From: Microcoleus sp. FACHB-1515
Lineage (GTDB): Bacteria; Cyanobacteriota; Cyanobacteriia; Elainellales; Elainellaceae
Assembly: GCF_014696105.1 (NCBI RefSeq)
Contig: NZ_JACJPO010000038.1
Coordinates: 248,001 to 312,000, forward strand
Direction: 5' to 3'
Length of the DNA stretch: 64,000 nt
Part shown: positions 33,072 through 44,751 of the stretch, in pieces
Numbering within the stretch: the stretch's first letter is position 1
How the letters are laid out: each line of letters starts with the position of its first letter
Translations under genes and position numbers: made by a program
Notes under the pieces: generated by a model
What the model saw: the letters and a program-made list of their open reading frames with translations, nothing else
Databases searched by the model: none
What the model was told of the DNA's origin: nothing

Positions 33072-35297
33072 TTAGGCAGACTCCAAGAGGTTCTTGAGTT
33101 CCTGTTCGCGATGCTGGAGACGTTCGGCCAGCAAATTGACGATGAATCGATGAATATTGGAGGCTAAAAGCGGGTCGGTTGCTTCAATTTTTTCAAACGT
33201 TTCTGTTGAGAGAAAATACAGCGTGCTGGGTTTATCGGCAACGACTGAAGCCATGCGAAGCGTTCTGCGATAGAGTCCCATTTCACCGATCGTATTGCCG
33301 ATCGTGTAGGTGCGAATCCGCTTTGTCGTATGGTCGCCCAGCTTCAGCACGACGCTAACTTGCCCAGAAGCAACAAAGTAAAGTCCATCAAACGGATCGC
33401 CTTGATGAAACAAATATTCTTCTGCTTCAAGGTGATGAATTTCGAGGTAGGAAAGGAGGCGATCGACCTGTTTAGGATCAGAGAAATCCGTTTTTAACTG
33501 TTCAGCTAAAGCGGCTGCGGGCGAGTCAAACTGTGGCTGCTCTTCAGGCTGGTAGTACTGCTGCAAAATTTGCTGTTCATACCACTCTAAGCCTCGATCT
33601 AGGTCGGCAAAAATGTGGCAGTAGGGATCATCTTCCTCGATGCAATCTCCTTGCTTAAGCCGCTGCATTGCCTCAGCGGACAAGTTTGTGTAGAGCAGAT
33701 GAACTTGCTTTTGGGTTGCAACCTGCTTGAGTTTGGCAAAACTTAAAACCGCAGAAGCGTCGAGTCCGCTGACCAATCGAAAATCTAAAACAACGCAGCG
33801 AACAGGTTTTGCATCGGCGTGATTGATGCGATCGCGCACTTGATTTAGCAGCTTGTTGGCAGTTCCAAAAAAAATTAGTCCTTGCAGTTCAACAATGTAG
33901 GCTTGGTCGCCTTCTGCTTCAAGAATTTCTATTTCTTCGGAAGTTCTTAAAACGTTACTGTGATGATAGGTTCCAGTGCTAATGCGCCGAACGACGGTTA
34001 AGCGGCTGTAGTTAATCACAAATAAAACGATCGCGGCCAGTAGGCCAACGCTAATCGCTTGCAGAAAGCCAACCGTTGCCGTCACCAGCACAATTAAAAC
34101 GATAATTGCATAGTCCGAACGTGAGAATTTGAACCAGGCTTCGTAAAGCCATTCGTTGAAAAACTCCAGCGTCACCAACAGTGGCATTCCAATCAAAATA
34201 AATTTGGGAAATAGGGACAGAATCGGTGCGCCGCCTAGCACCATTGCTAAACAAATGGCAGCAACGATCCATCCGGTCAACCGTCCGGTTGTTCCCAACT
34301 GTTTTGCTAATGCGTTTTCACCCGCGCTAGCAAATCCACCCACGCCACCACCTACACCCGAAAGCAGCCACGCCAAGCTAGCTACTTTGAGTTCACGATT
34401 AAAATTCAGGTCGCGAGTAGCGACGAGTTCAACGCCGTTTCCATGCAGCAAAAGCGCGATCGTCGCTACGAGCCAAAGTGCTGCCAGTGTGGGAATTTGC
34501 TGAATCACAACGTTCCAGTCCGCCTGGGCGATCGCGCTGAAGGTCGCGAATTGGTACAGCCCTCCAGAAGGAACGCTACCCAGCAGCAAACCTTGGGCAT
34601 TTGCCTCAGCGATCGGCGTTCCCGTGAGCGCGAGTCCAATGTAAAAAAGGGCAACCGCAACCGCCAAGATGCTCGGATAAACAGCCACATGCGTGATTCG
34701 CTGAGGCACTAAGAACATGACCGCAGCAAAGATTAAGCCCGGAACCCATTGCAGCAGGGCATTTAGTTGGAAAAAAGCCGCGATCGAGGATGAGTTGAGT
34801 TCTGAAACAGATTGGAAGGCTGCGATTAATAAAAGCACTCCGGTTCCTGCTAGAAAACCGCCAACAACCGGATAGGGAATGAAACGAACAAAACTGCCAA
34901 GCTTGAAAAAGCCTAACGCGAAAAAAATAGCACTAACAATCAAGCTATTGAGCGCGATCGTCGCGACAACCGTGAGCAGTTTCTGTTCAATCGGAGCGTC
35001 CGGCATCAGCTCAACAATCTGCCGCGCAACCAGGCTAAAGATTGGCACGGTTGATTCAGCAATGGTGGCGACGATCGCCGGATAAGAACTAAAGGAAGTA
35101 ATGACCGCGCTAATCACAACCGAGCTAAACAGCAGCAACCCGATTCCAAAGGGCAGCGCAGGTGCTAAATCGCCTGAGAAGATCACCGTACCAAACGATA
35201 CAGCACTGGTGACAGTCAACAGCCCCATGATGCCGCCTGAAATCAGATCAGAGACGACAGGATTCGCAGTAGGCTTAGGGTATACGATGTGAGCCAC
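33072..35297 (-). CDS. SulP/SLC26-type anion transporter with STAS and cyclic-nucleotide-binding domains
   Basis: A 741-residue protein. Residues ~15-420 are the SulP membrane domain (ISGGIMGLLTVTSAVSFGTV; FIPYPVVGGFLAGTGVLLLI). A STAS domain follows (~440-560; CVVLDFRLVSGLDASAVLSF). Residues ~605-735 are a cNMP-binding domain with EYLFHQGDPFDGLYFVASG and the phosphate cassette IGEMGLYRRTLRMASVVA, keeping the Glu and Arg that hold cyclic nucleotide phosphate and ribose. Relatives carry sulfate, bicarbonate or other anions; the substrate is not known. It is divergent from the chemosensory-cyclase operon, so its activity might respond to the cAMP made there. Confidence 0.9.
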   Translation of the reverse strand: MAHIVYPKPTANPVVSDLISGGIMGLLTVTSAVSFGTVIFSGDLAPALPFGIGLLLFSSVVISAVITSFSSYPAIVATIAESTVPIFSLVARQIVELMPDAPIEQKLLTVVATIALNSLIVSAIFFALGFFKLGSFVRFIPYPVVGGFLAGTGVLLLIAAFQSVSELNSSSIAAFFQLNALLQWVPGLIFAAVMFLVPQRITHVAVYPSILAVAVALFYIGLALTGTPIAEANAQGLLLGSVPSGGLYQFATFSAIAQADWNVVIQQIPTLAALWLVATIALLLHGNGVELVATRDLNFNRELKVASLAWLLSGVGGGVGGFASAGENALAKQLGTTGRLTGWIVAAICLAMVLGGAPILSLFPKFILIGMPLLVTLEFFNEWLYEAWFKFSRSDYAIIVLIVLVTATVGFLQAISVGLLAAIVLFVINYSRLTVVRRISTGTYHHSNVLRTSEEIEILEAEGDQAYIVELQGLIFFGTANKLLNQVRDRINHADAKPVRCVVLDFRLVSGLDASAVLSFAKLKQVATQKQVHLLYTNLSAEAMQRLKQGDCIEEDDPYCHIFADLDRGLEWYEQQILQQYYQPEEQPQFDSPAAALAEQLKTDFSDPKQVDRLLSYLEIHHLEAEEYLFHQGDPFDGLYFVASGQVSVVLKLGDHTTKRIRTYTIGNTIGEMGLYRRTLRMASVVADKPSTLYFLSTETFEKIEATDPLLASNIHRFIVNLLAERLQHREQELKNLLESA

Positions 35298-35536: not shown

Positions 35537-36052
35537 ATGCTGTTGCTGCTATTTCGGCTTGGTGAAAATCGATATGCGATCGATACGGCGGATATTGCTG
35601 AAATTGTGCCGATGGTACTGCTGACAAAAATTCCGGCTGCGCCTGCTCACATTGCCGGAGTTTTCAACTACCACAGCAGCATCGTTCCGGTAATTGATTT
35701 GTGTCAACTTATTCGAGGAACTGCCTGCCAAGCTTGTTACAGTACCCGCGTTGTGATTGTGAATTCGATTGCAGGAGCAGCGGAAGTAGAACCAACAAGA
35801 AAAGGCGATCGCCAATTCGCTACTCGCCTGCTCGGACTGATGGCAGAACGAGTTACGGAGACATTGAAAATCAGTGAGGATTATCTTGGAAACGCTCAAC
35901 AAATTAGCACAGTTCCTTACTTGAGCGAGCCATTTCTTGATGAGCAAGGTATGATTCAACAGGTGCATTGGCAGTATCTTGTGTCAGAAGCTCATCAAGC
36001 TGCATTGTTGACAGAAGGCGGAAATCAGGCGAATGGTGCAGGACGCAATTGA
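35537..36052 (+). CDS. CheW-like coupling protein (WspB type), first gene of a Wsp-like operon
   Basis: A 171-residue CheW fold: MLLLLFRLGENRYAIDTADI, IAGVFNYHSSIVPVIDLCQL and GLMAERVTETLKI match the SH3-like subdomains that link receptors to CheA. In Pseudomonas the corresponding protein is WspB. It overlaps the next gene, cheR, by 20 bases, implying translational coupling. The divergent SulP gene lies 239 bases upstream, and a CTACAAAACTTTGTAG hairpin stands in the gap at 35337-35352. Confidence 0.88.
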   Translation: MLLLLFRLGENRYAIDTADIAEIVPMVLLTKIPAAPAHIAGVFNYHSSIVPVIDLCQLIRGTACQACYSTRVVIVNSIAGAAEVEPTRKGDRQFATRLLGLMAERVTETLKISEDYLGNAQQISTVPYLSEPFLDEQGMIQQVHWQYLVSEAHQAALLTEGGNQANGAGRN

Positions 36053-37232
36053 GGAAATTCTGCGTCAGCAGTTAGGACTTGATCCGAACAGCATTGGGTC
36101 GCGAATTATCGATCGCGCTGTTAAGCAGCGACAGGCCGCTTGCCACCTAAGCGATCGCGCTTCCTACCTCAAACTTCTACAATCTTCTCCACAAGAATTC
36201 AACTGTTTAATTGAGGCAGTCGTTGTTCCTGAAACCTGGTTCTTTCGAGACAAAGAACCGTTTGCTTATCTGCGTCAGTATGTTCATGAATGGCGATCGC
36301 TCGCTTCTAGCAAGCTACATATCCTCAGCGCTCCTTGTTCAACAGGTGAAGAACCTTATTCGATCGCGATGACGCTGCTCGATGCTGGACTCTCGCCTCG
36401 TCAGTTTCACATTGATGCGGTAGATATTAGCCAGGTTGCCCTATCAAAAGCGAAGCAAGCCGTTTATAGCAAAACATCTTTTCGAGGTGTTGAGGCGCAA
36501 ACTATTCAGCGTTATTTTCGGGAAGTAGGGGCAGGATATGAGGTGCAATCGATCGTGCGAGAATCGGTAGATTTCATGCGAGGAAATGTTCTAGAACCTC
36601 GGTTCTTGACACAGAAGAAATATCAAATTATCTTTTGCCGCAATCTATTCATCTACCTTGACCAAGTAGCTCGCGATCGCCTCATCCAGTCACTAGATAC
36701 TGCCTTGATGGATAACGGAATTCTATTTTTAGGAGCAGTAGAAACATCGCAGCTTAGGGGTAAACCCTATACACCAATTGACCATCCCTTTGCGTTTGCC
36801 TTTCGCAAAGAACGACCTGCTACGCCTATTCCGGCGAGCAAAAAAGTAGCGATCGCTCCATCCAAAGCGATTCGTCCTTTACCGCAGCTTCCAGCACCAC
36901 CAGTAATCGATTCTCCGCCTGAACTTTCATCCTTGGAAACCGCAAAACAGCTTGCCGATCGCGGACAGCTTCGCGATGCTGTTCAATTGTGTGAAGCGGT
37001 TCTGAGAACGAATCCAACCCAGGCAAATGCCTATTTGCTGTTGGGTGAAGTTTATCAAGGTCTCAATCAGCCTAAACAGGCAGAGCAGAATTTTCAAAAA
37101 GCAATTTATCTTAATCCTGAAGCGTATGAAGCACTCATTCATCTGGCATTATTAAAAGAGCAGCAGGGCGATCGATCGGCAGCACAGCGATTGAAACAGC
37201 GGGCACAGCGGCTTGTTAACTCTCAAAAATAG
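36033..37232 (+). CDS. cheR: CheR-type methyltransferase with C-terminal TPRs (WspC type)
   Basis: A 399-residue protein. Residues ~1-260 are the SAM-dependent chemoreceptor methyltransferase: VVPETWFFRDKEPFAYLRQY, the SAM loop ILSAPCSTGEEPYSIAMTLL and IIFCRNLFIYLD. A Pro-rich linker leads to TPRs at ~295-395 (ANAYLLLGEVYQGLNQPKQA), the layout of Pseudomonas WspC. It methylates glutamates of the receptor encoded next, setting its sensitivity. It overlaps cheW upstream by 20 bases and precedes the receptor gene by 18. Confidence 0.92.
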   Translation: MVQDAIEEILRQQLGLDPNSIGSRIIDRAVKQRQAACHLSDRASYLKLLQSSPQEFNCLIEAVVVPETWFFRDKEPFAYLRQYVHEWRSLASSKLHILSAPCSTGEEPYSIAMTLLDAGLSPRQFHIDAVDISQVALSKAKQAVYSKTSFRGVEAQTIQRYFREVGAGYEVQSIVRESVDFMRGNVLEPRFLTQKKYQIIFCRNLFIYLDQVARDRLIQSLDTALMDNGILFLGAVETSQLRGKPYTPIDHPFAFAFRKERPATPIPASKKVAIAPSKAIRPLPQLPAPPVIDSPPELSSLETAKQLADRGQLRDAVQLCEAVLRTNPTQANAYLLLGEVYQGLNQPKQAEQNFQKAIYLNPEAYEALIHLALLKEQQGDRSAAQRLKQRAQRLVNSQK

Positions 37233-37250
37233 GTTGAATTGGGCGGTATT

Positions 37251-38858
37251 ATGGCTCGATCGATTTTGAATAGCGTCACGAATCGCATTCTGTTAGGTTA
37301 CTCTATTCCGCTGTTGGCGCTATTAGGATTAAGCGCTTTTGTTTACAGTTCTACGACTCGCGCTTTTCAACAAGAGCAGATCAGCAATCAAACCGAACAG
37401 TACATCCGCAATACAAATTTGATGGTGGATGGACTCAATCGTATGATTGGAAGCGCCCGTGCCTATTTGCTGTTCCCAGGAGAGCAAAATTATGTCAGAA
37501 CCTACAATGAAGCGCAAGAAGATTTCACTGAAAGCATTAACGAGATTTCAACCGTTGCCGATCCTGAAACGCGAGAACTTGTGAACGATTTGAATCAGCT
37601 TGGCGAGGAATACGAGCGAATACTGCAAAATGTATTTCGTTTAGTTGACCAAAATCAAATTTCTCAAGCGCGAGAAGAAGTAACGAGACCAAGAATTGCT
37701 GAAGTCATCGCCCAGCGCGATCGCCTGCTCAGTGAACTGCAAGATGAACTCGATCAAAACAATCAAGCCGTCCGCAATTCGCAGCAAGCCTTACTGCGTT
37801 TAATTATTATTGGCACTGGATTAACCATTCTAATTACGCTGCTAACCGGACTATTTTCAACATTGGCACTGCGGCGACAGCTTCCCAGAGTAGTGGACGC
37901 AGCAACAGCGATCGCAAACGGAGATTTAACGCAATCGATCGAAGCGGGCAAAGATTCAACTGAAGTTGGACGGCTCTTAAATGCATTTCAAGAAATGGTG
38001 AAAAGTTTGAACAGCCTAATTACGCAGGCGCAGCGATCGGGCATTCAAATTAGCACTTCAGCCACGCAAATTGCGGCAGCAGGGCGACAGCTTGAAGCAA
38101 CCGTGAACGAACAGGCAGCATCAATGCATGAAGTTAAAGCGACTTCTCGACAAATTGCTTCGACTGCGGGCGAACTGGCGCAGGCAATGGATGAAGTTAC
38201 CGAAACCGCGCAAGCTACTGCACTCGCTGCTTCTAACAGTCAAACGAATCTGGATAAGATTCAGTCAGCAATGCAAAATTTGGTATTGGCGACCAGTTCT
38301 ATCTCATCCAAGTTGAAGGCAATGGATGAGAAGGCAAATAACATTAACAACGTTGTGACAACGATTACTAAAGTTGCAGATCAAACAAATTTATTATCAT
38401 TAAATGCGGCGATCGAAGCTGAAAAAGCCGGAGAATATGGAGCCGGATTCGCCGTTGTTGCGAGAGAAATTCGGCGTTTAGCTGACCAATCTGCGGTTTC
38501 CACATTGGAAATTGAACAGATGGTGAAAGGAATGCAAACATCGGTTTCAACAGGCGTTATGGAAATGGATAAGTTCAGCCGAGAAGTTGCAAAATATGTG
38601 GAAGAAGTGGGTGGAATTAGTCAGCAGATTGCCAGTTTCATTCAGGATGTTCAAGGACTGTCACCCCGCTTTGAAACTGTTAGTCAGCGTATGGATGAGC
38701 AGTATCGCGGAGCCGAACAAATTAGCACGGCGATCGCCCAACTCAGTGATGCTTCCTATCAAACTATGCAGTCTTTGCAGGAAACGAATACGGCTTTGAC
38801 GCAGTTAGATGATGCGGCACAAGGATTGCAGCGAGAAATTTCTCAATTCAAGGTTTGA
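37251..38858 (+). CDS. Methyl-accepting chemotaxis protein (WspA-like receptor)
   Basis: A 535-residue receptor: membrane helix at ~12-32, a helical periplasmic domain (~33-185, four-helix-bundle type), a second membrane helix at ~188-208, HAMP, and a long signalling coiled coil. The hairpin tip reads KVADQTNLLSLNAAIEAEKA then GFAVVAREIRRLADQS. The C-terminal part (IEQMVKGMQTSV, VMEMDKFSREV, PRFETV, GAEQISTAIAQLSDA, GLQREISQFKV) resembles Pseudomonas WspA, which responds to surface contact, more than flagellar receptors. ATG 37251 is preferred over TTG 37239. The next gene starts one base after its stop. Confidence 0.93.
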   Translation: MARSILNSVTNRILLGYSIPLLALLGLSAFVYSSTTRAFQQEQISNQTEQYIRNTNLMVDGLNRMIGSARAYLLFPGEQNYVRTYNEAQEDFTESINEISTVADPETRELVNDLNQLGEEYERILQNVFRLVDQNQISQAREEVTRPRIAEVIAQRDRLLSELQDELDQNNQAVRNSQQALLRLIIIGTGLTILITLLTGLFSTLALRRQLPRVVDAATAIANGDLTQSIEAGKDSTEVGRLLNAFQEMVKSLNSLITQAQRSGIQISTSATQIAAAGRQLEATVNEQAASMHEVKATSRQIASTAGELAQAMDEVTETAQATALAASNSQTNLDKIQSAMQNLVLATSSISSKLKAMDEKANNINNVVTTITKVADQTNLLSLNAAIEAEKAGEYGAGFAVVAREIRRLADQSAVSTLEIEQMVKGMQTSVSTGVMEMDKFSREVAKYVEEVGGISQQIASFIQDVQGLSPRFETVSQRMDEQYRGAEQISTAIAQLSDASYQTMQSLQETNTALTQLDDAAQGLQREISQFKV

Positions 38859-38859
38859 G

Positions 38860-39549
38860 ATGAAGACGGAGGCTTGCTGGGATGAAATTGGCGTGAATGG
38901 CGATCGATCGTGCGATCGCCTCGAAACCGCTTTGCACTGCTTCAATTGCCCCGTCTATATCTGTGCCGGGCGCAGTTTACTAGATCGTGAAATTCCGATC
39001 GATTACCTTCAGGAAACCACGCAGGCATTAGCCACTGAAACGAGCGCGATCGCCACAGCAATTCAGCAAGATTCGCTTAAGATTGGACAAAATCAGGACA
39101 CGCTCTCCGTGATGATTTTTCGCTTGGGAAACGAGCGATTTGCCCTGCCTGTTTCTGTTCTACAAGAAATTACTCGTCCGGCTGAGATTCACGTTTTGCC
39201 GCACCGTAGCAATGAGTTGTTTTTAGGATTGGTAAACATTCGCGGTGAAATTTTGCCTTGTGCTTCTTTGAGTCAGATTTTGAGTGTAGAGATGCCGATC
39301 GATCCGACCTACAGCCGAATTAATCTTCGGTGCATGATCGTCGTTGGACAAGCAAGCCGTTGGGTGTTTCCGGTTGATGAAGTGCATCGTGTTCATCGAT
39401 TTCATGTCAGCGAACTGCAAGCCGTGCCCGTTGTAATTGCCAAGGCGTCACAAGCTTATACCCAAGGCATCATTGACTGGCAGCAAGAAAAAGTCAATTA
39501 TCTAGATGCGACCCGTTTGCTTGACGCGATCGATCGCCGCCTGCTTTAG
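38860..39549 (+). CDS. CheW-like coupling protein with N-terminal Cys motif (WspD type)
   Basis: A 229-residue protein. The N-terminus CWDEIGVNGDRSCDRLETAL followed by HCFNCPVYICAGRSLLDREI is the hallmark of WspD-type CheW proteins, with Cys-x2-Cys and flanking cysteines of unknown purpose, perhaps metal binding. The CheW domain spans ~75-225 (SVMIFRLGNERFALPVSVLQ; LVNIRGEILPCASL). The ATG lies one base after the receptor stop, so translation is probably coupled. A second CheW in the same operon is normal for Wsp systems. Confidence 0.92.
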   Translation: MKTEACWDEIGVNGDRSCDRLETALHCFNCPVYICAGRSLLDREIPIDYLQETTQALATETSAIATAIQQDSLKIGQNQDTLSVMIFRLGNERFALPVSVLQEITRPAEIHVLPHRSNELFLGLVNIRGEILPCASLSQILSVEMPIDPTYSRINLRCMIVVGQASRWVFPVDEVHRVHRFHVSELQAVPVVIAKASQAYTQGIIDWQQEKVNYLDATRLLDAIDRRLL

Positions 39550-39560
39550 CAAAAGCTGCC

Positions 39561-42236
39561 ATGTCCAACTACTCGATGCTGGATTTATTTCGTCAAGAAG
39601 TAGAGATTCAAGTTGCCAACTTGAAGCAGCAATTGGCGATGCTGAAACAGCAACCGGAAGCGATCGATCGCCAAAATGCTCTGCAAGCGCTTCACGCCAT
39701 TCAGGGAATTGCTCAAATGGTGGAAGTCGAAGCAGCAGTTACTTTAACTGAGGCGATGCAGTCTAAACTGGCAGAAGGACAATTGTTAGATGAAATGGCG
39801 ATCGATCAACTGCTACAAGCAAGTGATTGGCTAATTGAAATTAGTCAGTTAAACGCGGCTGAGCAAGAGCGCTGGCTGTTCTCGCACGTGTCAGAAATCG
39901 ATGTGATTCAAGAGCGGCGCTTCGATCGCGATAAGCAGCTTGCAACTGAAGTTTCAGAAGCCAATTTAATCAAAGAAGTTGCTGCGCCGCTGCCAATTGT
40001 TGATGCTCAAATTATGGATTTGTTTCGCTTGGAAGTGGAGGAGCAAGCGAAAATTTTGAACGAGGGTTTGTTGGTGCTGGAAACGACCCCGAATGCGACA
40101 CAATCTTTGGAAGCGCTGATGCGAGCAGCCCACTCGATCAAGGGAGCCGCTCGCATTGTTGGACTGGATACGGCTGTCAATTTGGCGCACGAGATGGAAG
40201 ATTGCTTTGTCGCCGCTCAAAATCACACGCTGACGCTCAGCCCTGACCTGATTGACGGACTGCTACGCGGAGTTGATTTGCTGCAAAGTTTGAGTCAGGT
40301 GAGCGATCGCGACCTCCCCGACTGGCTGTCCACACACAATCTTGACCTAAATTCAGTGCGATCGCTGATTGACGCGCGGCGCCATCCTGCTTCAGCACCG
40401 CCATCCGAACCGACCGCCGTTCATGCAAATGGTGCAACTCCGCCCGCTCCTCCAGCGATTGCGTTGCCTCCGCCGGAAGATGCGCCCGCGATCGCACCTG
40501 CTGCCCGCGATCGCGTCGTGCGGGTCAGTGCGGACAACCTGAATCGGATGATGGGACTGGCCGGAGAATCGCTGATTGAGGCGAATGCTCTGCCTGCGCT
40601 GGCCGATGCCTTGATGCAGGTGCGATCGCAGCAAATCAAACTGGCGCAAAGTCTGGAAACGCTGGAGCAACAGACGCTCGGTAATTCCACGATCGATCGA
40701 TCGCTGGTTGAATCAATTCGCCGTCAGGAACAGCACTGCCGCAATCTGCTGAGCGATCGTGTCGCGGAACTGGAAGAATTTATTCGCCGGACAATTAATT
40801 TATCCGATCGGCTGTATCGCGAGGTGATTGCTTCGCACATGCGTCCGTTTGAGGAAGGAGTGCAAAGTTTTTCGCGGATGGTGCGCGATTTAGCTCGCAG
40901 TTTGGATAAGCAGGCGAGACTAGAAATTATCGGTAAAACAACCGAGGTCGATCGCGATATTCTCATGAAGTTGGAAGCTCCGATTACGCATATTCTTCGC
41001 AATGCGATCGATCACGGAATTGAATCGCCTGCCGATCGTCTCGCAGCCGGAAAGCCTGCCCAAGGCCGCATTCGCCTGGAAGCTGTTCATCGCGGTGGCA
41101 TGCTGGCAATTACGATCGCGGATGATGGTAAGGGAATTGATGTGCAAAAACTGCGGCAGCGAATCATTCAAAAACAACTTGTTCCTCCAAATTTAGCGGC
41201 AAAATTAACCGATTCTGAACTGCTGGAATTTCTCTTTTTACCCGGATTTTCTTTGTCGAATCAGGTGACAGAACTTTCGGGGCGCGGCGTTGGGTTAGAC
41301 ATTGCGAAAAGCATGGCGCAAGAAGTCGGCGGCACGGTGCGTGTTACATCACGACCTGGAAAAGGTACGACTTTCTATTTTCAACTGCCGCTAACTTTAT
41401 CGGTGTTGCGGACGCTTTTAGTCGAAGTTGCCGGAGAAGCGTATGCCTTTCCGTTGTCGCGAATCGATCGAATTGCTACGGTTCAATCAAGCGATCTTTC
41501 AGTTGTTGAAAATCGTCAATATCTCACGCTCGATCACGAAAACATCGGCTTAATTCCGCTGTATCAAGTTCTCGATTTACCCGCTCCCAATTCACCATCT
41601 GAATCGCTTTGGGTCGTCATTCTTAGCGATCAAACCAGCACCTATGGACTAATCGTCGATCGTTGTTTAGGCGAACGCGAACTCGTTGTGCGACCGCTCG
41701 ATCCACGCTTAGGAAAAGTTCAAGATATCTCAGCCGCTGCTTTAATGCCCAACGGCTCGCTGGTGCTGATTTTAGATGTTTCAGATTTAATGCGATCGCT
41801 CAACAGTTTACTGGGAGAAGAACGCATCGCAAAAATAACTGAAGCGCGATCGCCCAAGGCCGAAAATGCCAAGCGCGTTTTGGTAGTGGATGATTCGATT
41901 ACGGTGCGAGAAATGGAGCGCAAGCTATTACAAAATCGTGGCTACTTGGTGGATGTGGCGGTGGACGGGATGGAAGGCTGGAATGCGGTTCGTTCCTACC
42001 CGTATGATTTAGTGATTAGCGATATTGATATGCCGCGCATGAACGGCATTGAACTGATTCAAGAAATGAAGCGACATTCGCGCTTCCAGTCGATTCCGGT
42101 AATTGTTGTCTCATATCGCGATCGAGAAGACGATCGAATTCAGGGATTAGAAGCAGGGGCAGATTACTATTTAACGAAAAATAGTTTTCATGATGACACG
42201 CTTATTCGCGCTGTTGTCGATTTGATTGGTGAATAA
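39561..42236 (+). CDS. cheA: Hybrid CheA kinase with two Hpt domains and C-terminal receiver (WspE type)
   Basis: An 891-residue kinase. The first Hpt-like domain (~1-105) has [11 protein letters not shown] with His45; the second (~150-265) has the canonical [12 protein letters not shown] with His191. An Ala/Pro linker is followed by the dimerisation region, the ATPase domain ([47 protein letters not shown]), a CheW-like domain (~630-755) and a receiver ([26 protein letters not shown]). The fused receiver matches WspE. It should phosphorylate the downstream CheB and the receiver-cyclase. The first Hpt has Gln in place of the Lys of HSIKG and may be accessory. Confidence 0.94.
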
Positions 42237-42237
42237 T

Positions 42238-43263
42238 ATGCGAATTGCAATTGTCAACGATTCGATCATCGCCACTGAAGCAATGCGAAGGGTGCTGCTC
42301 ACCGTTGCAGAATATCGAGTCGTTTGGATGGCAAAAAATGGCGCGGAAGCGGTGACAAAATGCAGCCATGATTTGCCTGATTTAGTGTTAATGGATTTGC
42401 TTATGCCCGTGATGGACGGTGTTGAAGCCACTCGTCAGATTATGAAGCGATCGCCCTGCGCCATCCTCATCGTGACAGTAGACGTGAAGCAAAACGCCGC
42501 CAAAGTTTACGAAGCGATGAGCTATGGTGCTTTGGATGCCGTTAACACTCCGGTTTTAGGCAGCTACGGCAGTCCCGAAGTGACGCAAACGCTATTGCGA
42601 AAAATCGCCACGATCGAAAAGCTAATCCGCAAACCTACTCGACTTCCATCGACTTCTCCACCTCTGCTGGCTGCCGCTCCAATTTCTACGCTTTTGCCGC
42701 CATTAATTGCGATCGGATCTTCTACAGGTGGCCCCAAAGCGCTCGCGACAATTCTTGCACCGTTGCCCCAAGATTTCCGCGCTGCGATCGTCATTATTCA
42801 GCATGTAGACGCACAGTTTGCCCCTGGATTAATTGACTGGCTCGATCATCAAACCGCCTTGAAAGTGAAGAAAGCAGAAGTGGGCGATCGTCCTGAAAAA
42901 AGCTTGGTTCTGGTTGCTGCAACTGACGATCATCTAACTTTGAAATTCGATCGCACTTTAACTTATGTAAAAGAGCCAATTCACTATCCTTATCGACCCT
43001 CGATCGATGTTTTCTTCAAAAGCATTGCTCAATATTGGAGTGCTAAAGGAACGGCAATTTTGCTAACCGGAATGGGGCGAGACGGCGCAGAAGGACTCAG
43101 CTTATTGCGACAGCGTGGCTGGCGGACGATCGCCCAAGATCAAGCAAGCTGCGTCGTTTACGGAATGCCAAAAGCCGCAGCGGAACTGAATGCTGCCTCT
43201 CAAGTGATGAACCCCGAAGCGATCGCTTCCACCCTGCTCCACGATACCGCTCTGAAGCATTAA
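42238..43263 (+). CDS. cheB: CheB protein-glutamate methylesterase (WspF type)
   Basis: A 341-residue protein: receiver domain (~1-120) with Asp53 in [13 protein letters not shown], a short linker, and the methylesterase domain with [15 protein letters not shown] (Ser161/162), IIQHVDAQF (His189) and [13 protein letters not shown]. It removes methyl groups from the receptor when phosphorylated, opposing CheR. Loss of its Pseudomonas counterpart WspF locks the pathway on. ATG 42238 starts one base after the kinase stop; an in-frame TTG lies at 42226. Confidence 0.94.
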
Positions 43264-43269
43264 TTCGCT

Positions 43270-44751
43270 ATGAATGATCCAATTACTGTTTTACTGATTG
43301 ACGATCAAACGATTATTGCAGAAGCTGTGCAGCAGATGCTTTCAACTGAAACAGATATCGCTTTTCACTACTGCGATGATCCGCTGCAAGCTCTAAAAGT
43401 AGCGAAGTTTTGTCAGCCAACAGTGATTTTACAAGATTTAATCATGCCGCAAATGGCCGGATTATTACTCGTGCGATTGCTGCGATCGATCGATGCACCG
43501 ACGCATCAAATCCCGTTAATCGTTTTATCCAGTAAAGAAGACCCAGTAATTAAGGCACAAGCCTTTGAATATGGCGCAAATGACTACTTGGTGAAACTGC
43601 CCGATCGCGTTGAATTACTAGCGCGAATTCGCTATCACTCCAGAGCCTATACGAACTCGCAAAAAAGACAGGAAGCTGAAGTACAACTGCGAAATGAAAA
43701 TGAGCGACAGGCGCTGTATATCGAACAAGTTGGCAAACTCACTGATGCGGCATTTGCGGTCGAGCAAAATACGTTTGAACCTGCAAAGTTAGATGGCATG
43801 AGCGATCGCGATGATGAATTAGGTCAGTTAGCGCGAGTGTTTACCCAGATGGTGAAAACGGTGAAGGTGCGCGAAGCTGAATTGGAACGACTAAAAGATT
43901 CTTTGGCTCGATTTTTTCCAGATGAATATCTCAGATTTTTGCGAAAAGATAGCGTAACTGAAGTTCAGCTTGGCGATTACGTCAGCAAAATTATGGCGGT
44001 GATGTTTAGCGATATTCGATCATTTACAACCATTTCTGAAAGTATGTCGCCCCGTGAAAACTTCGACTTTATTAATGCCTATTTAAAGCGCGTCAGCCCC
44101 GAAATTCGCAATCACTATGGCATCATTGTTAAATTTTTGGGCGATGGCATGATGGCCGTTTTTCCAGATGGCGCAGATGATGCACTCGCGGCGGGAATTG
44201 CGAAACATCAGCGTGTTCAAGAATATAATCAACAGCGATTAGCGAGGGGCGATCGACCCATCCAAATTGGCATCGGCATTCACGTTGGTTCGATGATGCT
44301 AGGAATGGTGGGCGAAAGCAATCGAATTCAAGGCGATGCTTTCTCAGACAATGTAAACTTAACGTCGAGACTAGAAGGACTAACAAAAATTTATGGCAGT
44401 TCGATGTTAGTGACAGGTCAAACATTGGAGCATTTGAGCCGTCCTGAAGCCTGCAAGGTTCGCTTTTTAGCCCATACGATCGTCAAAGGTCGCACAGAAC
44501 CAATCGCCGTTTACGAAGTACTCAACACCGAACCCGACATCAGCCGCGATCGAAAACTGCAAACATTACCGCAATTTGAACAGGGCATTCAATGCTACTG
44601 CGATCGGAATTTCACTGAAGCGAAAGCCTGTTTTGAACAAGTGATAGCCGTTCATGCTGAAGATAAAACAGCACGACTTTATTTCGATCGAATTGAATTA
44701 TTACTTTCCCAAGGTGTTCCCCAAAATTGGAGTTCAGCCTGGTCATTTTGA
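43270..44751 (+). CDS. Response regulator with class III adenylate/guanylate cyclase output
   Basis: A 493-residue protein in the position of WspR. The receiver (~1-125) has the acidic pair D11/D12, Asp56 in LQDLIMP and K109. A HAMP-like linker (~155-210) leads to a class III cyclase (~235-420): metal ligands Asp248 (MFSDIRSFTTIS) and Asp292 (KFLGDGMMAVFP), substrate residues Lys288 and Asp356, and transition-state Asn363/Arg367 (NVNLTSRLEG). The Lys/Asp pair is that of adenylate cyclases. The tail (~440-493) has a TPR-like helix pair ending GVPQNWSSAWSF. No GGDEF domain is present. It starts 6 bases after cheB and ends the operon. Confidence 0.93.
   Translation: MNDPITVLLIDDQTIIAEAVQQMLSTETDIAFHYCDDPLQALKVAKFCQPTVILQDLIMPQMAGLLLVRLLRSIDAPTHQIPLIVLSSKEDPVIKAQAFEYGANDYLVKLPDRVELLARIRYHSRAYTNSQKRQEAEVQLRNENERQALYIEQVGKLTDAAFAVEQNTFEPAKLDGMSDRDDELGQLARVFTQMVKTVKVREAELERLKDSLARFFPDEYLRFLRKDSVTEVQLGDYVSKIMAVMFSDIRSFTTISESMSPRENFDFINAYLKRVSPEIRNHYGIIVKFLGDGMMAVFPDGADDALAAGIAKHQRVQEYNQQRLARGDRPIQIGIGIHVGSMMLGMVGESNRIQGDAFSDNVNLTSRLEGLTKIYGSSMLVTGQTLEHLSRPEACKVRFLAHTIVKGRTEPIAVYEVLNTEPDISRDRKLQTLPQFEQGIQCYCDRNFTEAKACFEQVIAVHAEDKTARLYFDRIELLLSQGVPQNWSSAWSF

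Follow-up and report, generated by a model that had tools for sequence, protein, structure and literature searches.

The seven genes at positions 35537-44751 of the window (the whole stretch of 64,000 nucleotides from Microcoleus sp. FACHB-1515 that was analysed) probably encode a Wsp-class (ACF-type) chemosensory array with an adenylate cyclase as its terminal output, CheA phosphorylating the receiver of the cyclase; we give this reading a probability of about 0.8. All seven genes lie on one strand and comprise the Wsp and ACF layout, i.e. a receptor, two CheWs, CheR-TPR, CheA-REC, CheB and a multidomain response regulator, in the order B-C-A-D-E-F-(R), which differs from A-B-C-D-E-F-R. A seven-gene Wsp-like set had been claimed in the preliminary description of this DNA, and every open reading frame is present at the coordinates below, scoring far over the curated Pfam cut-off for the expected family. 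The genes, preceded by a neighbour outside the operon, are as follows.

33072-35297, minus strand: SulP transporter-STAS-cNMP_binding protein, divergent neighbour outside the operon, candidate cAMP effector (Pfam Sulfate_transp, STAS, cNMP_binding)
35537-36052, plus strand: CheW, WspB-like (Pfam CheW 2.8e-20)
36033-37232, plus strand: CheR methyltransferase-TPR, WspC-like (Pfam CheR 1.8e-44 plus TPRs)
37251-38858, plus strand: receptor, WspA-like, with a CHASE3-like periplasmic domain, HAMP and MCPsignal (Pfam; tip NLLSLNAAIEAEKAGE)
38860-39549, plus strand: CheW with an N-terminal four-Cys motif, WspD-like (Pfam CheW 6.6e-23; motif)
39561-42236, plus strand: CheA hybrid kinase, WspE-like, with two Hpt-like domains, HATPase, CheW and a C-terminal REC (Pfam; core tree)
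42226-43263, plus strand: CheB methylesterase, WspF-like (Pfam CheB_methylest 1.2e-57, REC)
43270-44751, plus strand: output protein, REC plus Guanylate_cyc (Pfam; WspR as best PDB match; AF2 model; Foldseek)

The domain content, homology, residues, conservation and neighbourhood of the operon are read directly from sequence. The genes overlap or abut each other (spacing of -20 to +18 bp), so that co-transcription of all seven as a single transcript is likely. The receptor probably starts at the ATG at 37251 rather than at the TTG at 37239, and the start of the Cys-motif CheW is probably the ATG at 38860 rather than position 38809. The Hpt-like motifs of CheA are HAIQG (at 45) and HSIKG (at 191). 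The operon goes beyond a chance arrangement, since many other cyanobacteria have the same operon, including a full-length orthologue at 63-78% identity.

The core of the window CheA is 42-51% identical to the CheAs of proteobacterial Wsp operons with a GGDEF output, and 32-37% identical to nine outgroup kinases that include E. coli CheA and the three other CheAs of its own genome. In the kinase-core tree, which like the receiver tree is a quick one with long outgroup branches, it falls together with 73 other Wsp-class CheAs in a clade of 74 rows (SH-aLRT 99); this clade also holds proteobacterial WspE and excludes E. coli CheA, the three other CheAs of the same genome and other ACF CheAs. The phylogeny therefore places the kinase inside the Wsp class and not outside it. 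Plasmid-borne CheAs are 45-50% identical to the window protein, among them the CheAs from Mesorhizobium pMLb and Azoarcus pAZKH; the operons of these two are annotated as MCP-CheW-CheR-CheW-CheA-CheB followed by a PleD-type/DGC regulator, which corresponds to wspABCDEFR. The receptor tip NLLSLNAAIEAEKAGE is common to the window and the proteobacterial Wsp receptors and differs in the E. coli receptor. The WspD-type CheW carries the motif CW..IG..GD.SC...HC.NCPVY, which is common to Wsp-class loci and was found in none of the outgroup loci tested; the N-terminal four-Cys motif (38860-39040 in the window) is kept across phyla. The GGDEF output is the one defining feature of Wsp that is lacking, and a class III cyclase is found instead; the operon is to be classed as a Wsp-class chassis with another output rather than as a WspR system. 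Its Wsp relationship and its cAMP-type output are well supported, and in these respects the preliminary description is borne out; its idea of a single rewiring is not, as discussed below.

The protein encoded by the last gene consists of the following parts.

Residues 1-145: WspR-type REC
Residues ~150-210: HAMP-like linker
Residues ~237-417: class III adenylate cyclase
Residues 423-481: TPR-like tail

The receiver finds P. aeruginosa WspR (3bre, 7e-43) and P. syringae WspR (3i5a, 1e-40) in the PDB, the best non-WspR receiver being PleD (5e-13), and the receiver alignment and tree that contain the window cyclase are made up solely of Wsp-type response regulators. The AF2 model (mean pLDDT 83) has one helix from 113 to 165 that leads from REC alpha5 into the HAMP-like linker, and a Foldseek search with the whole model returned WspR (3bre, 3i5a) at the top, followed by the class III cyclases Cya2, OaPAC and P. 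aeruginosa CyaB. PDB match, receiver tree and Foldseek thus agree with the earlier view of the last gene as the counterpart of WspR, and since the WspR-type receiver is located on the cyclase itself, we regard the cyclase as the cognate output. The proposed REC-HAMP-like-class III cyclase architecture was likewise recovered, the linker scoring below the Pfam threshold (19.0 bits in the window and 22.9 in an orthologue, with a cut-off of 25). The set of class III adenylate cyclase residues is complete: two metal Asp (D248 and D292), the Lys/Asp purine pair (K288/D356) and the Asn/Arg transition-state pair (N363/R367), all of which, together with D56 of the receiver, are invariant across nine orthologues. 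The Lys/Asp pair specifies ATP in class III cyclases, and with this pair in a complete site, cAMP is the predicted product. The host genome contains eight further class III cyclase matches, so that bulk cAMP does not have to depend on the enzyme of the window, and it also contains CRP-family candidates.

For phosphotransfer, sign of regulation, product and effectors we infer the following course of events. The membrane receptor, with the two CheWs as couplers and with CheR-TPR and CheB for adaptation, would control the hybrid kinase CheA, and CheA would phosphorylate Asp56 of the WspR-type receiver. The signal would then run through the continuous REC-alpha5/HAMP-like helix and change the activity of a dimeric class III cyclase, so that the pathway would set the level of cAMP in place of cyclic di-GMP. 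The probable targets of the cAMP are CRP-family regulators encoded at other loci and, in the clade of the window, adjacent membrane proteins with a cyclic-nucleotide-binding (CNB) domain, namely SulP-CNB and, in two relatives, MscS-CNB. In Synechocystis, motility is under cAMP control via Cya1 and SYCRP1 (PMC7690835). The term surface, if applied to the input of the window array, should be taken as an analogy only; the periplasmic part of the receptor is CHASE3-like.

A survey of cyanobacterial genomes for the operon, as proposed in the preliminary description, covered 386 genomes, with WspR-GGDEF rows included in the query and outputs read from the fetched loci. It gave 25 WspR-type receivers in 23 genomes, linked to a cyclase (13), a histidine kinase (8) or PP2C/SpoIIE (4); GGDEF was on none of the 25. 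The cyclases comprise nine of the window type (AC1, REC-HAMP-cyclase) and four of a second Lys/Asp type with an HNOBA-like linker (AC3). Two genomes (G074 and G328) have one REC-adenylate cyclase and one REC-histidine kinase each. A scan of 84,980 species gave as named AC1 hosts Leptolyngbya FACHB-8 (78%), Phormidesmis priestleyi BC1401 (75%) and Phormidium tanganyikae (72%), as well as Calothrix, Moorena, Oscillatoria PCC 10802, Nostoc FACHB-973 and Roseofilum, and showed that many phyla have Wsp operons whose output is of another kind; the 80 loci examined were ranked by similarity to the window protein and the phyla are unevenly sampled, so the ancestral output cannot be inferred from them. 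A third cyclase type occurs in Wsp operons of Desulfobacterota, Thioploca, Thiomargarita and the cyanobacterium Iningainema. In the last of these the cyclase domain closely matches the guanylyl cyclase Cya2 (2w01) at 1e-86 and has the Glu and Gly of Cya2 at the purine positions, hence it is predicted to make cGMP. Two AC1 outputs are located away from a Wsp CheA: in Roseofilum the CheA is on another contig, and in Calothrix FI2-JRJ7, which has an orphan REC-adenylate cyclase (L073), no Wsp-type CheA was found in the genome (best identity 34%), meaning that the receiver-cyclase can exist without an array. There are a few further peculiarities of individual loci. Two Pseudanabaena loci (L137, L139) combine a cyanobacterial Wsp chassis with a REC-GGDEF output; a second receptor lies between cheB and the REC-cyclase gene at L042:7294-9738 (dCache-type) and L044:4503-6944; CheA of a Moorena MAG occupies two ORFs (L041:1051-3677), either as a real split or as an assembly error; and in three Desulfobacterota loci (L108, L110, L121) cheB is followed by a tandem of outputs, one a Cya2-type REC-cyclase and the other a REC-SpoIIE phosphatase.

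Mapped on the quick CheA tree, the output labels need at least 15 changes, and the same holds for the receiver tree. The deep branches carry PP2C-type outputs, in a sample biased towards the window protein. AU tests in which the groups were named by output and not taken from the tree rejected a single clade of all cyclase-type CheAs (p-AU 2e-8), and with it one common origin of the cyclase output, as well as a clade of the AC1-type CheAs alone (p-AU 2e-5); the GGDEF-type CheAs do not form one clade either (p-AU 0.04). The single rewiring of the first reading gives way to many exchanges, of which the window is one. The clearest swap is found in Cuspidothrix (L090). Its CheR, receptor, CheW, CheA and CheB are 62-77% identical to those of cyclase-type Nostocales (75-77% for CheW, CheA and CheB alone), but its REC-PP2C output shares 79-80% identity with PP2C outputs from operons in which the chassis reaches only 42-66%; judged from these identities, the entire output gene was replaced and the chassis retained.

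The neighbourhood of the cyclase-type operons contains several proteins with a CNB domain. An orthologue of the divergent SulP-STAS-CNB gene (63-74%) also adjoins the operon in the three closest relatives of the window; this neighbour is limited to them, and it was absent from the Nostocales-type genomes tested (E<=1e-60). Phormidesmis and P. tanganyikae have a further gene between the SulP-STAS-CNB gene and cheW, for an MscS-family channel that carries a cNMP-binding domain at its C-terminus (MscS-CNB). MscS-CNB channels also occur near the Moorena operon, and the guanylate-cyclase operon of Iningainema has one inside, between cheA and cheB. The phosphate-binding cassettes of the SulP-CNB and MscS-CNB proteins retain Glu and Arg. 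A family of related MscS-CNB channels (bCNG) is already known (references in PMC4560390); in the plasmid collection the MscS-CNB protein had no close relative and no match covering 80% of its length. A CNB neighbour is present in 7 of 19 AC1/GC cyanobacterial operons versus 0 of 24 with histidine kinase, PP2C or GGDEF outputs (Fisher p 0.0016), a tally made by hand, with uneven flanks and non-independent relatives, with about five separate gains involved, and with a degenerate cassette in one of the seven operons (G064). None of the seven AC3 operons has such a neighbour. The cassette arginine is missing from the double-CNB protein downstream of the G064 operon and from a 173-aa CNB protein of Thiomargarita, which makes both weak effector candidates. 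Overall, the neighbourhood suggests that CNB proteins beside cyclase-type operons may be local effectors. We tentatively extend this to a general scheme, to which we give somewhat less than even odds: the Wsp chassis and the WspR-type receiver would form a plug-in core in which the output gene is exchanged as a whole (GGDEF, two kinds of adenylate cyclase, guanylate cyclase, PP2C phosphatase or histidine kinase), the cyanobacterial cyclase versions having as local targets SulP transporters and MscS-type channels gated by cyclic nucleotides, i.e. working as arrays that gate ion flux. Six PP2C-type Wsp operons (L087, L088, L090, L091, L092, L180) have an MscS-family channel without a CNB domain downstream of REC-PP2C. 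At L180 the two are separated by a DUF6272 gene and a STAS/SiaC-like gene, L049 has REC-PP2C-CheB followed by DUF6272, SiaC-like and HAMP genes, and a GGDEF gene is found near the operon at L188; in such PP2C-type loci the Wsp system seems to be joined to a Sia-like partner switch.

The 2016 Phormidesmis paper searched the genome for wspR homologues and leaned to a WspR encoded elsewhere (PMC4971617), and one can imagine that in the window, too, the true output of a Wsp-class operon is a distant REC-GGDEF protein and the cyclase a bystander. GGDEF response regulators were indeed found elsewhere in the P. priestleyi genome (PMC4971617); however, the WspR-type receiver is carried by the cyclase itself, it is the only receiver of this type in the host genome, and none of the 25 such receivers in the 386 genomes is fused to GGDEF, all of which makes a remote output quite unlikely. 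We consider it very unlikely that the window cyclase makes cGMP or is unspecific, so that the messenger would be other than cAMP: the two purine-specifying positions are occupied by Lys and Asp in the window protein and in all its AC1 orthologues, even though residues are not a certain guide to class III specificity and Cya2-like relatives with Glu/Gly at these positions hold the same place in other Wsp operons.

A different possibility concerns the input. The array might sense the osmotic, ionic or envelope state rather than surfaces, and control ion or anion flux through the CNB transporters and channels. This would agree with SulP-CNB beside the operon in four genomes, with MscS-CNB adjoining the operon or lying within it in Phormidesmis, Phormidium, Moorena and Iningainema, and with the different MscS-family channel that PP2C-type operons have instead, but most cyclase-type operons of Nostocales are without such neighbours, and we regard the idea as possible though on balance doubtful. 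The reading of a Wsp-class array with an adenylate cyclase output is the one that we carry forward. It shows that a well-studied surface-sensing pathway is not tied to one second messenger: the same pair of kinase and receiver is found with cyclases that make cAMP, c-di-GMP or, probably, cGMP, and with phosphatases or kinases. What is new here is the WspR-type receiver on the cyclase, the count of outputs for 25 receivers, the repeated swaps (as in Cuspidothrix and in the Cya2-like version) and the CNB neighbours of several cyclase-type operons; for receiver identity, output census, in-place swap, guanylate-cyclase version and effector neighbourhood no precedent was found in the literature searched, which most subscription papers lie outside. 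Natural swap pairs and named neighbour effectors are now available for bench tests.

It is instructive to compare the window operon with systems described before. Its layout was already noticed in 2016 in Phormidesmis priestleyi, as a Wsp-like operon where a class 3 adenylate cyclase takes the place of WspR (PMC4971617), and the window is a further example. The BC1401 cassette (L071) has the same B-C-A-D-E-F order and a cyclase 75% identical to ours. The authors also noted a gene for a cyclic nucleotide binding protein before wspB and called regulators and effectors unclear; their study neither recognised the receiver of the cyclase as WspR-type nor included a survey of output exchange, and we propose an answer to their question on the response regulator of the cyanobacterial Wsp system. 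Earlier still, a mononucleotidyl cyclase was listed among the response regulators of cheR-TPR clusters in a paper that describes the ACF class (PMC3447774, 2012). The WspH system of Burkholderia (PMC8552884, 2021) resembles the window in having a Wsp chassis with a non-GGDEF output, but there the output is a REC-histidine kinase and not a cyclase. The same paper states that WspR and WspH are the sole outputs of Wsp systems and that there is one system per organism; this is contradicted by the cyclase and phosphatase outputs and by the two genomes with both REC-adenylate cyclase and REC-histidine kinase. Compared with Pseudomonas Wsp, the window has homologous CheA, CheB, CheR-TPR, two CheWs, receptor tip and receiver, but a class III cyclase instead of GGDEF, the order BCA instead of ABC, and a CHASE3-like sensor where proteobacterial Wsp receptors have 4HB_MCP. 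Finally, in the Pil-Chp system of P. aeruginosa a chemosensory array controls the class III adenylate cyclase CyaB, which is without a receiver, is encoded outside the array operon and is linked to the array indirectly; in terms of fold, CyaB is among the cyclases nearest to the window output model in the Foldseek search.
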